Below are positions 2,930 to 5,229 of a stretch of 5,229 nt of DNA, in pieces. The notes beneath the pieces were generated by a model, which was not told the origin of the DNA, searched no databases, and saw nothing but the letters and a program-made list of their open reading frames with translations. The translations under genes and the position numbers were made by a program. The first letter of the stretch is position 1; every line of letters starts with the position of its first letter. This DNA is from Anaerolineae bacterium (GTDB taxonomy: Bacteria > Chloroflexota > Anaerolineae > Anaerolineales > Villigracilaceae): assembly GCA_017303735.1 (NCBI GenBank), contig JAFLCF010000270.1, positions 1 to 5,229 of the forward strand, in the 5' to 3' direction.

Positions 2930-3182
2930 TCAAGTCATACTGTTGTTCGACGATGAATATCTGAAATTGCAAACCAAGTTTGATATTCACGAATACGAAA
3001 TTATGGAGAGAATTGGTCTTTCCATCCCAAACGAAAAGATTAGTGCTACGCTCTTATGTAAAATTCGTGGGCGTGGTGCATTACGCAGATTTAGAGATAT
3101 GATTTATTAGTATGAGATTGAAGAAGAGTGGTTCAATTATCCAAGAAAAAATGTTCGCAAAACATTAAACCTCACTTTATAA
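2925..3182 (+). pseudogene. UPF0158 family protein, 5'-truncated and interrupted
   Basis: Read in the frame of 2949, the sequence gives DDEYLKLQTKFDIHEYEIME, then IGLSIPNEKISATLLCKIRG and RGALRRFRDMIY, then TAG (3108-3110), then YEIEEEWFNYPRK and a final TAA at 3180-3182. The blocks FDIHEYEIME, RGRGALRRF and EEEWF are typical of the C-terminal half of UPF0158 proteins, a family of unknown function. The N-terminal half is missing: a stop at 2922-2924 lies directly upstream in frame, inside the end of the membrane-protein gene. The amber codon splits the C-terminal part, and sequence after it has drifted. No intact start or ribosome site fits. The remnant's last bases now overlap the promoter of the WYL gene. 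An alternative reading as a short functional peptide from ATG 3003 is unlikely. Confidence 0.7.
3150..3166. promoter_or_regulatory. Candidate operator at the WYL gene promoter
   Basis: Inverted repeat AATGTT-CGCAA-AACATT. Its right 13 bp (TTCGCAAAACATT, 3154-3166) recur on the opposite strand of the helicase promoter with one change (4351-4363). It covers the proposed -35 of the regulator's own promoter, as expected for autorepression by a WYL protein (inference). Confidence 0.45.
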
Positions 3183-3183
3183 T
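3154..3183 (+). promoter_or_regulatory. Promoter of the WYL regulator gene
   Basis: A perfect TATAAT lies at 3178-3183. TTCGCA at 3154-3159 is a fair -35 (four of six) with an 18-bp spacer. Transcription would start about 7 nt after the -10, at or next to the A of the ATG at 3190, predicting a leaderless mRNA. The -35 overlaps the candidate operator. Confidence 0.6.
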
Positions 3184-3189
3184 GGTCTC

Positions 3190-4188
3190 ATGCGTGGCAG
3201 CGAGTGGACTTCTCTTAAAAGATGTTTAGCAATTGTGCAGAGATTACAGCAGGGACCTGCTACAAGTCTTGAACTCTTTGGTTACGTCTTGAGCGCCTTG
3301 GATGAGGCAGCTTATCCATCCTCAGTTTCTGCGCGAGAAAAAGCGTTTAAGCGTGATCGGGAAAATTTAAAAAAGAGGCTGGGGGTAAAAATACAATACT
3401 CAGCTTCTACCAAGAAATATACGCTTGCGGAAAGTAGTGAATTGTTTCGATTAAAGCTATCTGCAGAGGGTTTGCGCGCAATTTCTATTTTGTCGAACTC
3501 TTTTGAGGGACATGTAGGGTCATACACCGAAATAAAGGATTTGTTGAGCGATGTAGTTCCTCGTTTATCAAACGAAGATCAGCGCAACCTCGAAAGTATG
3601 GGGTCTCATATTTATCTCGACCTATTAGGTGATGTAGACCCAAATCATTTATCAAAGAAGGTATGGGTAACCGTTTGGAAAGCAGTTAAGAATCACAGAA
3701 AACTTGCCTTCAACTACAGATCGCCTCGATATGAAGACCACAAACCGCGATATCAGGAGGTAGTGCCTTATCGTATTCAGTATCAATCTGGGCATTGGTA
3801 CCTGCGGGCGTATCGACTGTTATATAAGGATAGTATTGGTATTCATCACACAGCATCGCATGTGAAGTATCGACTGAGTTATCTTTTGGAAGATGATGCA
3901 TTGACCATCTTGCCGCAAAAGATGCCAAGCCCACCGGCCCCTCCAAGGTATTTTGTTCAATACCGCCTGCTCCCTCCTTTATCTAATGGGATCATTAGTC
4001 AACGGTTTGATGAAATGCAGGTAAAAAAACTGGAGGATGATAGTGTGCTCGTGAGCGGGTTTTGCGAAGATGTCTTCGAGGCAGGGCGCATCTTGCTCAC
4101 GTATGGGGAGTATTGCATTGTTACTGGGGGAGAAGAGATGTTGAATTGGATGAAAAACACCATACAGGGAATGGCAGAAAATTACTAA
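3190..4188 (+). CDS. WYL-domain transcriptional regulator of the adjacent defence operon
   Basis: Seen: 332 residues. An N-terminal winged helix-turn-helix spans about 5-78 (LKRCLAIVQRLQQGPATS... FKRDRENLKKRLGVKI). A linker follows, then a WYL domain at about 155-235 with the signature HWYLRAY (W203, Y204, L205) and YRSPRY just before it. A C-terminal WCX-like extension runs from about 253 to 328. This is the full-length architecture of WYL regulators. Related proteins BrxR and CapW repress BREX and CBASS defence operons and bind nucleic-acid or other ligands through the WYL pocket. The ATG has no Shine-Dalgarno and lies 7 nt after a TATAAT, so the mRNA is probably leaderless. Two terminators separate it from the helicase gene, so the regulator is expressed independently and probably acts on that promoter. 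Repressor versus activator cannot be told from sequence. Confidence 0.88.
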   Translation: MRGSEWTSLKRCLAIVQRLQQGPATSLELFGYVLSALDEAAYPSSVSAREKAFKRDRENLKKRLGVKIQYSASTKKYTLAESSELFRLKLSAEGLRAISILSNSFEGHVGSYTEIKDLLSDVVPRLSNEDQRNLESMGSHIYLDLLGDVDPNHLSKKVWVTVWKAVKNHRKLAFNYRSPRYEDHKPRYQEVVPYRIQYQSGHWYLRAYRLLYKDSIGIHHTASHVKYRLSYLLEDDALTILPQKMPSPPAPPRYFVQYRLLPPLSNGIISQRFDEMQVKKLEDDSVLVSGFCEDVFEAGRILLTYGEYCIVTGGEEMLNWMKNTIQGMAENY

Positions 4189-4193
4189 ACAGA

Positions 4194-4227
4194 AAAAGAC
4201 TAGCCCGCATATGCGGGCTAGTCTTTT
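4194..4227. terminator. Bidirectional intrinsic terminator after the WYL gene
   Basis: A perfect 17-bp palindrome arm pair (4194-4210 and 4211-4227) starts with AAAA and ends with TTTT, with the GC-rich core CTAGCCCGCAT and its complement. The hairpin loop is about 4 nt (ATAT). It begins 5 nt after the stop codon, and the A and T runs allow termination from both sides. Confidence 0.88.
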
Positions 4228-4307
4228 ATATAGAATTCCCCCAGATAATTTATCTTGCTGTCTGATCTCGGCATTCTCTGAGGGGAATATGCTGGGTGGG
4301 GGTTCGC

Positions 4308-4348
4308 AAAAGGGTCTCGCGCATCTAACGAAGAGACCCTTTTTGTTT
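4308..4348 (+). terminator. Second intrinsic terminator before the helicase promoter
   Basis: An 11-bp stem AAAAGGGTCTC (4308-4318) pairs with GAGACCCTTTT (4333-4343) around a 14-nt loop, followed by TGTTT. It sits about 30 bp upstream of the helicase -10 box. Together with the first terminator it insulates the defence operon from read-through of the regulator gene. Confidence 0.8.
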
Positions 4349-4350
4349 CG

Positions 4351-4363
4351 AATGTTATGCGAA
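4351..4363 (-). promoter_or_regulatory. Candidate WYL-regulator operator at the helicase promoter
   Basis: On the minus strand this reads TTCGCATAACATT. It matches TTCGCAAAACATT at 3154-3166 in 12 of 13 positions and overlaps the -35. A partial copy, TTCGCAAAA, also occurs at 4303-4311 on the + strand. Binding by the WYL protein is inference. Confidence 0.45.
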
Positions 4364-4379
4364 GAAATTTGGGTATAAT
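4351..4379 (+). promoter_or_regulatory. Promoter of the helicase (DISARM) operon
   Basis: A perfect TATAAT lies at 4374-4379. The -35 position 17 bp upstream is AATGTT (4351-4356), a poor match, so basal activity may be low or helped by a regulator. The predicted start is near 4386, giving a leader of about 130 nt. The -35 zone is covered by the motif shared with the WYL promoter. Confidence 0.5.
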
Positions 4380-4406
4380 TGCCTTCATGAACGGCCAAGT
4401 GAGGGA

Positions 4407-4421
4407 TTTGTAATTTACAAA
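4407..4421. promoter_or_regulatory. Palindrome in the helicase leader, second operator candidate
   Basis: TTTGTAA-T-TTACAAA is a perfect 7-bp dyad around one base, 27 bp after the -10 box and inside the transcribed leader. Such a position suits a repressor roadblock. No similar dyad is seen near the WYL promoter, so the binding protein is uncertain. Confidence 0.35.
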
Positions 4422-4453
4422 AAAGCCGCCTCATTTCATAGTAATCGTAGAAA

Positions 4454-4516
4454 ATGAAAAAGGGGCTGTTCGATGTTGATGTTCCATTCCTGCATATTGG
4501 ATTGTTAGGAACCTAA
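4454..4516 (+). CDS. Possible 20-codon leader peptide directly before the helicase gene
   Basis: Seen: ATG at 4454 opens a frame coding for MKKGLFDVDVPFLHIGLLGT. It ends with TAA at 4514-4516, and the helicase ATG follows at once (TAAATG). The frame is the same as the helicase gene, so only this one stop separates the two. No strong Shine-Dalgarno precedes it. It could be a translated leader that couples or limits helicase synthesis, a trace of a longer N-terminus, or chance: an open stretch of 20 codons is not rare. No known leader peptide is recognised. Confidence 0.25.
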   Translation: MKKGLFDVDVPFLHIGLLGT

Positions 4517-5229
4517 ATGAGCACTGATATCACCGCTATTCCAGAGCAAGGACAGATCGTTACCGTTCGCCAGCGTCGCTATGTGGTCGTGGATGTACAG
4601 CCAAGCACACTGCCGCCACAGCCACTTGCCGTGAGTCAAACGGCAGGTCAGCACTTGTTAACCTTGAACTCCATCGAAGACGATGGCTTGGGGGAAACCT
4701 TGCAAGTGATCTGGGAACTGGAACCTGGAACAAGTATCGAGGAAAAGGTGGGGCTGCCCCAGCCAGATGGCTTTGATGCGCCCGAACGGTTGGATGCATT
4801 TATGAATGCCGTGCGTTGGGGAGCAATCTCATCGGCAGATACACGAGCGTTGCAGGCTCCCTTCCGGAGCGGCATTGAAATTGAAGATTATCAGCTTGAC
4901 CCGTTGGTACGCGCCATTCAGATGCCGCGCGCTAATTTGTTAATTGCCGATGATGTGGGTCTGGGTAAGACCGTTGAGACCGGATTAGTGATTCAGGAAC
5001 TGATCGTACGCAACCGTGCGCGGACTATATTGATTATTTGCCCAGCGGGACTGCAGACACATTGGCGCGACCAGATGCGCGACAAGTTCGGGTTGGAGTT
5101 CCGCATTATAGACAGTGACTTGATGCGCAGCCTGCGCCGCAGCCGTGGAATCCACTCAAACCCGTGGACACACTTTCCGCGCCTCATTACCTCGATCGAC
5201 TTTATCAAACGCGATACGCCGATGCGACT
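4517..5229 (+). CDS. drmD: SNF2-family helicase, probable DISARM protein DrmD (3' end outside window)
   Basis: Seen: 237 complete codons, open to the window edge. The ATG at 4517 has AGGA 6 nt upstream (4507-4510). The N-terminal segment, about residues 8-80, is a beta-rich accessory region (GQIVTVRQRRYVVVDVQP). The superfamily 2 core then begins: Q-motif YQ at 125-126, motif I DDVGLGKT at 145-152 (K151), motif Ia LIICPAGLQTHW at 172-183, and a TSIDFIKR stretch near the edge. The DEAH box and second RecA domain would lie downstream. DDVGLGKT with QTHW is typical of SNF2/RapA-like translocases. The N-terminal accessory region and the upstream WYL regulator point to DrmD of class 1 DISARM, an anti-phage system that also uses a methylase and DrmA, DrmB and DrmC. 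The gene is GC-richer than everything to its left. The main alternative is another SNF2 or RapA-type helicase in a different defence locus. Confidence 0.75.
   Translation, partial: MSTDITAIPEQGQIVTVRQRRYVVVDVQPSTLPPQPLAVSQTAGQHLLTLNSIEDDGLGETLQVIWELEPGTSIEEKVGLPQPDGFDAPERLDAFMNAVRWGAISSADTRALQAPFRSGIEIEDYQLDPLVRAIQMPRANLLIADDVGLGKTVETGLVIQELIVRNRARTILIICPAGLQTHWRDQMRDKFGLEFRIIDSDLMRSLRRSRGIHSNPWTHFPRLITSIDFIKRDTPMR

Follow-up and report, generated by a model that had tools for sequence, protein, structure and literature searches.

How the DISARM defence system is switched on is little described in the literature searched: the parts consulted mention CapH/CapP modules adjoining DISARM, and no study of WYL control of DISARM appeared there by title or abstract. 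The stretch of DNA analysed here, 5,229 nt in full and called the window below, raises the question of whether a regulator with a WYL domain controls both its own gene and the DISARM genes next to it. The window carries a WYL gene followed, after a gap of 328 bp, by drmD on the same strand (Table 1). Both gene calls of the original prediction were borne out by the profile matches listed in the table. The first 237 residues of DrmD are present before the gene runs off the window, and the NF038317 score lies below the whole-protein cut-off because of this truncation. The gene drmD is the class 1 marker of DISARM, whose further genes are named drmMI, drmA, drmB and drmC. The start MRGSxW is the consensus start of the WYL protein among 61 aligned sequences.

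Table 1. Genes, promoter elements, candidate sites and predicted hairpins of the window.
Feature	Position	Strand	Remarks
WYL regulator gene	3190..4188	+	wHTH (about 1-81), linker helices, WYL domain; Pfam WYL 1.6e-8
drmD, DISARM SNF2-like helicase gene, 5' part	4517..5229	+	PADLOC DrmD 7.7e-116; NF038317 1.5e-106
-10 box TATAAT of the WYL gene	3178..3183	+	6 nt before ATG
TATAAT, candidate -10 box of drmD	4374..4379	+	without consensus -35
Candidate site 1, inverted repeat with TTCGCAAAACATT inside	3150..3166	+	over -35 zone of WYL promoter
Candidate site 2, TTCGCATAACATT	4351..4363	-	5' of drmD TATAAT
Hairpin directly 3' of WYL	4194..4227		terminator-like in the scan, minus strand
Hairpin with GAGGGGA loop	4266..4299	+	
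10-mer GTTCGCAAAA	4302..4311	+	exact to 3153-3162; overlaps 5' arm of the terminator-like hairpin
Terminator-like hairpin AAAAGGGTCTC...GAGACCCTTTTT	4306..4346	+	predicted; z -2.4 for the stretch 4300-4350

The regulatory proposal started from two 13-mers, TTCGCAAAACATT at 3154-3166 on the plus strand and TTCGCATAACATT on the minus strand, whose coordinates, strands and identity in 12 of 13 positions were confirmed. The inverted repeat AATGTT-CGCAA-AACATT described around the first copy was found as well, with the arms AATGTT (3150-3155) and AACATT (3161-3166) enclosing the spacer CGCAA. Compared with site 1, site 2 keeps one half-site and the spacer, and its other half is degraded. The distance to TATAAT is 11 bp for the first 13-mer and 10 bp for the second; as a pattern the paired word of the window was written TTCGCAWAACATT.

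TATAAT stands exactly 6 nt 5' of the WYL ATG in the window and in the related loci L001, L002, L003 and L006, i.e., in five of the 18 WYL upstream regions inspected. L005 has TATACT 7 nt before its start. At the 6-nt spacing, TATAAT was seen by eye in none of the other 13 regions, which include L004, where an HTH_26 gene stands immediately 5' of WYL, and L007-L017, whose proteins are 34-43% identical. The fixed spacing between TATAAT and ATG in the near relatives makes a leaderless WYL mRNA probable, in these loci as in the window, and the WYL promoter itself is probably real. A consensus promoter scan reported it as TTCGCA, 18 bp, TATAAT (10/12), one of 11 sites in the window, where 13.8 were expected from shuffles. 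The drmD promoter was not among these 11 sites. Both 13-mers had been said to cover the -35 zone of a promoter with a perfect TATAAT; the two TATAAT boxes are in place, but the -35 element of drmD is not, the best hexamer at 15-19 bp spacing matching in 3/6 positions and the hexamer at 17 bp, AATGTT, in 0/6. Judged from its bases, the drmD promoter is weaker than had been claimed.

The first rival to a regulatory reading is chance, namely that an AT-rich 13-mer match between two promoters was picked by eye from the many possible coincidences in 5.2 kb; we regard this as a serious possibility, although a somewhat doubtful one. What speaks against it is position: directly before the two TATAAT boxes (3130-3189 versus 4319-4378) the best 13-mer match was equalled by just 17 of 2000 dinucleotide shuffles. 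Wider comparisons favour chance. When the comparison was extended to the 150 bp upstream of WYL and to all of the WYL-drmD intergenic region, a 13-mer match as good appeared in 32 of 500 shuffles; by an ungapped segment score (WYL -80..-1 versus the intergenic region) the pair was equalled in 32/400 shuffles and, with the same approach, in 66/1000 GC-matched real segments; and with mismatches penalised more stiffly, over 150 bp, 50 of 300 shuffles did as well, the top-scoring word then being the exact 10-mer at 4302 and not the 13-mer pair. Within the whole window, 304 pairs of 13-mers match in at least 12/13 positions (real repeats and double counts included), and the motif at up to 3 mismatches occurs 7 times, against a mean of 5.7, with at least 7 occurrences in 66/200 shuffles. 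Taken alone, the inverted repeat is weak evidence: per 1000 shuffles, repeats as good were found in 80 for the window, 62 for L003, 181 for L001, 456 for L005, 611 for L006 and 1000 for L002. By itself the window match is only suggestive, and it is suggestive because of its location before both TATAAT boxes, from which its weight comes.

Related loci were collected by a profile scan of genome contigs, which gave 26 loci; L001-L017 are related along nearly the whole WYL protein, at 34-57% identity. The sequence stops less than 400 bp past the WYL gene in L001, L008, L010, L011, L015, L016 and L017. Among the ten others, five have Cas genes behind WYL (Cas3d in L009, L012 and L014, Cas10d in L013, Cas8b in L007), DISARM genes are present in four (drmD in L002, L003 and L006, DrmA in L004), and L005 lies outside the scan. 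A WYL gene adjoins drmD in the window and in L002, L003 and L006. The CRISPR-linked WYL proteins of Anaerolineae belong to the same sequence family, although their loci differ in carrying type I-D or I-B Cas genes and not DISARM.

A DrmD like that of the window was found in 16 of 400 genomes of the order. A WYL neighbour of the window's family stands at drmD in three of them (G002, G003 and G005), and a C-terminal remnant in G004; among the other twelve, the contig ends within about 1 kb 5' of drmD in five (G607, G528, G581, G526 and G667). In G001, drmD is cut by the contig start and the WYL gene is on a separate contig. G004 has a WYL gene followed by an apparent transposase fragment (identified by eye) and then DrmA (L004, 5990-7134); a second contig (L097) carries drmD next to the C-terminal remnant of WYL, the intergenic stretch there being similar. 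In the loci tested (L001-L112), searches of the family, the order and the class turned up no additional WYL-drmD pair; 13 of the 43 matches of one such search lie outside these loci. The scan of IMG/VR for WYL gave no relative, and plasmids gave no WYL relative at 1e-20; by annotation only, none of the 3 plasmid records examined, of 41 with drmD, has a WYL gene adjoining it. Closer WYL homologues (P0001-P0005, 67-97% identical) are known as proteins.

In sequence terms, the conservation test named with the original prediction went against it, as the motif is not conserved in the orthologous loci: the best matches in seven regions reached 8-9/13, which 57-187 of 200 shuffles equalled, and beyond chance the window 13-mer is absent from L002, L003, L006 and the upstream region of L001, a result in favour of coincidence. 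Two of the sister loci have shared words of their own in the same two regions, which argues against it. In L002, the 13-mer CCAAATAGATATT occurs both upstream of WYL and in the WYL-drmD region (1/400 shuffles as good). The word of L003 is 20 bp long, with the palindrome ATGTGATCACAT in it; its copies in these two regions, ATGTGATCACATTATTGATA and ATGTGATCACAGACTTGATA, agree in 17/20 positions (1/400 shuffles). The third sister pair, L006, has no shared word (359/400 shuffles as good). Real segments, with the loci of the same genomes removed, did as well as the sister pairs in 0 (L002), 10 (L003) and 904 (L006) cases per 1000, and shuffles under the stiffer penalty in 2, 10 and 215 cases per 300, respectively. 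With the window included, Fisher's method over the four loci gave 0.0004 for real segments, 0.0009 for shuffles and 0.010 for the stiffer penalty, figures carried by L002 and L003, and the true pairing of the four loci had the top sum among all 24 permutations. Since the pair test was chosen after the words had been spotted by eye, its figures flatter. Among the cross-locus controls, to which L001 and L005 (no drmD region next to WYL) and L097 (a mere remnant of WYL beside drmD) contributed as controls only, 2 of 26 pairs (L001-L003 and L005-L002) reached the window score of 10.5, a further point for chance, and none reached 12.5. L004, with WYL directly behind the HTH_26 gene and an apparent insertion downstream, was left out of the pair test.

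The sister words are nearly private to their loci. In five genomes CCAAATAGATATT occurs twice in G002, both times at the L002 sites, and once elsewhere in G005; the L003 pattern, its three variable positions set to N, is matched at 0 mismatches only at its two places in G003, and at 2 mismatches it has three matches in G001 and one in G003, the reversed control having one each in G002 and G003. Two of the placements count against the operator reading: upstream of WYL the L002 word lies at -62..-50 and not over -35, and the second L003 copy lies about 110 bp 5' of the candidate drmD -10.

The DNA-binding domains hardly differ between these loci. The wHTH domains of L002, L003 and L006 are identical in 69-71 of 82 positions (84-87%), and the third helix (46-62) in 15-16 of 17. 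No exact 4+4 dyad in the WYL upstream regions is common to the three sisters or to all five regions, in a test that would miss a looser motif and in which shuffles too give almost none. That near-identical sister domains, expected to read the same DNA, recognise all these different words is hard to explain: the words may not be WYL sites at all, specificity may depend on a handful of positions, or the true sites may be shorter and looser than the words found. Because the near-identical domains come without a common exact dyad, the reading of the words as operators is held at less than even confidence.

The predicted structure of the WYL protein (pLDDT 84.8, pTM 0.55) comprises a wHTH, linker helices and a WYL fold; in the model, the wHTH has helices at 3-20, 26-36 and 46-64 and wing strands at 67-71 and 76-81. 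In Foldseek, DriD and PafBC rank highest, followed by CapW and BrxR, whose chains were matched at E 1e-6 to 1.5e-4 with a whole-chain TM of just 0.27-0.34. By sequence, no BrxR was among the 4 PDB profile matches, which are PafBC-type chains (best E 0.00094).

The closest likeness in layout is to BrxR. According to the portions of PMC9122601 consulted, R-BOX1 precedes brxR in the BREX island of pEFER and R-BOX2 precedes the operon, and one half-site and the spacer are well kept between both boxes. The window likewise combines a protein of WYL and wHTH domains with candidate sites before its own gene and before the defence genes, an inverted repeat with a 5-bp spacer, and one half-site and spacer kept better than the rest. 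It differs in that the BrxR arms are 11 bp and those of the window 6, that BrxR box 1 lies downstream of the -10 whereas site 1 lies over the -35, and that its system is DISARM, a word absent from the main text of PMC9122601 as consulted. CapW offers a second comparison: as described in the consulted parts of PMC9122588, it represses CBASS genes and apparently also its own gene, which is the role proposed here for the WYL protein, and three CapW homologues bind imperfect palindromes (24, 21 and 19 bp) at the promoters of their respective genes. The palindromes of CapW lie across the -10 of a shared promoter region (PMC9122588, same parts), unlike the two separate sites of the window. That two sister loci each have a word of their own, common to the regions before WYL and before drmD, fits BrxR-like two-site autoregulation with locus-specific sites.

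Taken together, the proposal that the WYL protein controls its own gene and the operon keeps the gene identities, the BrxR-like layout and the two sister words on its side, and has the unconserved motif and the weak drmD promoter against it. We consider it plausible, with a probability somewhat short of even, that the protein is a local regulator of its own gene and of DISARM through the pair of sites, which would make these a putative operator pair of an already known type. As a working model, a repressing two-site circuit is the most likely. The WYL protein, probably dimeric, would regulate its own leaderless gene and the neighbouring DISARM operon by binding site 1 over the -35 zone of the WYL promoter and the related site 2 over the -35 zone 5' of drmD; it would most likely block RNA polymerase at both sites until the WYL domain binds a releasing signal, which in some relatives is single-stranded nucleic acid. 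We infer the binding, the dimerisation, the repressing sign and the ligand on an observed base of gene identities, the sequence match, the fixed WYL -10 in the nearest relatives and the words in two of three sister loci.

Activation is a real alternative in sign, although an improbable one: at the same two sites the WYL protein would aid RNA polymerase at promoters with a poor -35, in the manner of DriD, PafBC and SiwR. The best fold matches, DriD and PafBC, are titled activators, and all six WYL promoters compared match TTGACA in at most 4/6 positions. For SiwR, described as an activator, the binding site is an imperfect palindrome of 19 bp that extends from -35 to -10 (PMC10693628, in part). 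By contrast, the defence-linked precedents BrxR and CapW, as far as their reports were consulted, repress, and in the window an inverted repeat covers the -35 of the WYL promoter itself. None of DriD, PafBC and SiwR is linked to DISARM in the portions of the literature examined. It is slightly less probable still that another protein (e.g., the HTH_26 regulator encoded at 2431-2640) binds the shared words, or that they stem from local DNA duplication with no regulatory meaning. In favour of this, the words differ by locus while the sister wHTH domains hardly do, and HTH_26 is present upstream of WYL in the window and L004. Against it, L004 was the only one of 20 other loci searched to have HTH_26, which was not seen in L002 and L003 with their shared words.

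The region between WYL and drmD also holds several predicted hairpins (Table 1). The core of the hairpin at 4194-4227 recurs 3' of WYL in L002, L003, L006 and L097. The hairpin with the GAGGGGA loop, between WYL and the drmD promoter, has a similar block in L002 (6078-6125) and L006 (6068-6120) and a weaker one in L003, with altered stem sequence; its z-scores are -2.6 in the window, -3.5 in L006, -0.8 in L002 and +0.7 in L003. The partial copy of the 13-mer, TTCGCAAAA at 4303-4311, is present as had been reported, but its role as a site was not upheld: the 10-mer containing it was rejected as a third site, as it overlaps the stem of the predicted terminator-like hairpin at 4306-4346 (whose loop is too long for the general terminator scan) and as the block at the equivalent place in L002, whose shared word differs, reads GGGGTTTGCAA. 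In L006, at about 6160-6242, a terminator-like hairpin with a T run is predicted 3' of the candidate drmD -10 and before the start of drmD (z -4.1); a similar stretch in L002, at about 6283-6320, was recognised by eye only, and its predicted fold differs. An attenuator or a small RNA is possible in this leader stretch of L006 and L002. Each of the 9 Rfam matches with E of at most 5 scored far under the gathering threshold.

Upstream of WYL, the window encodes an HTH_26 (Cro/C1-type) protein and a 99-aa protein (2431-2929), and an HTH_26 gene 72% identical to that of the window directly precedes WYL in L004 (4788-4988); the HTH_26 protein is a possible second regulator. Further upstream, at 1674-2167, lies an array of repeats of about 25-75 bp (GGCAAACTTATGCTTCCAG..., TGTAACTTAACCCATAAG...) in direct and inverted orientation, which is also found in L002 at 4069-4856, and related repeats occur on the other strand about 150 bp 5' of WYL in L002. 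We take the array to resemble the transposase-binding sites of a transposon end; given this array and the L002 repeats 5' of WYL, the DISARM island may be transposon cargo. The gene at 108-1598 encodes a protein of 496 aa, possibly an ATPase of the adjacent element; its Pfam matches are P-loop-like but sub-threshold, and PADLOC gave one weak match. A perfect 19-bp inverted repeat with a 7-nt loop at 1615-1659, 3' of this gene, is probably its terminator.

A broader reading, which we think unlikely, is that each WYL-DISARM locus has a private operator pair, whose word turns over fast while the two-site layout is kept, even between near-identical DNA-binding domains; such locus-by-locus insulation would let WYL systems reside together without cross-talk. 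If the operator pair of the window is true, it would provide a two-box WYL circuit on DISARM with exact candidate sites. The comparison of loci also suggests that such operators may escape searches for conservation among orthologues, and that looking for words repeated inside a single locus is the better way to find them.
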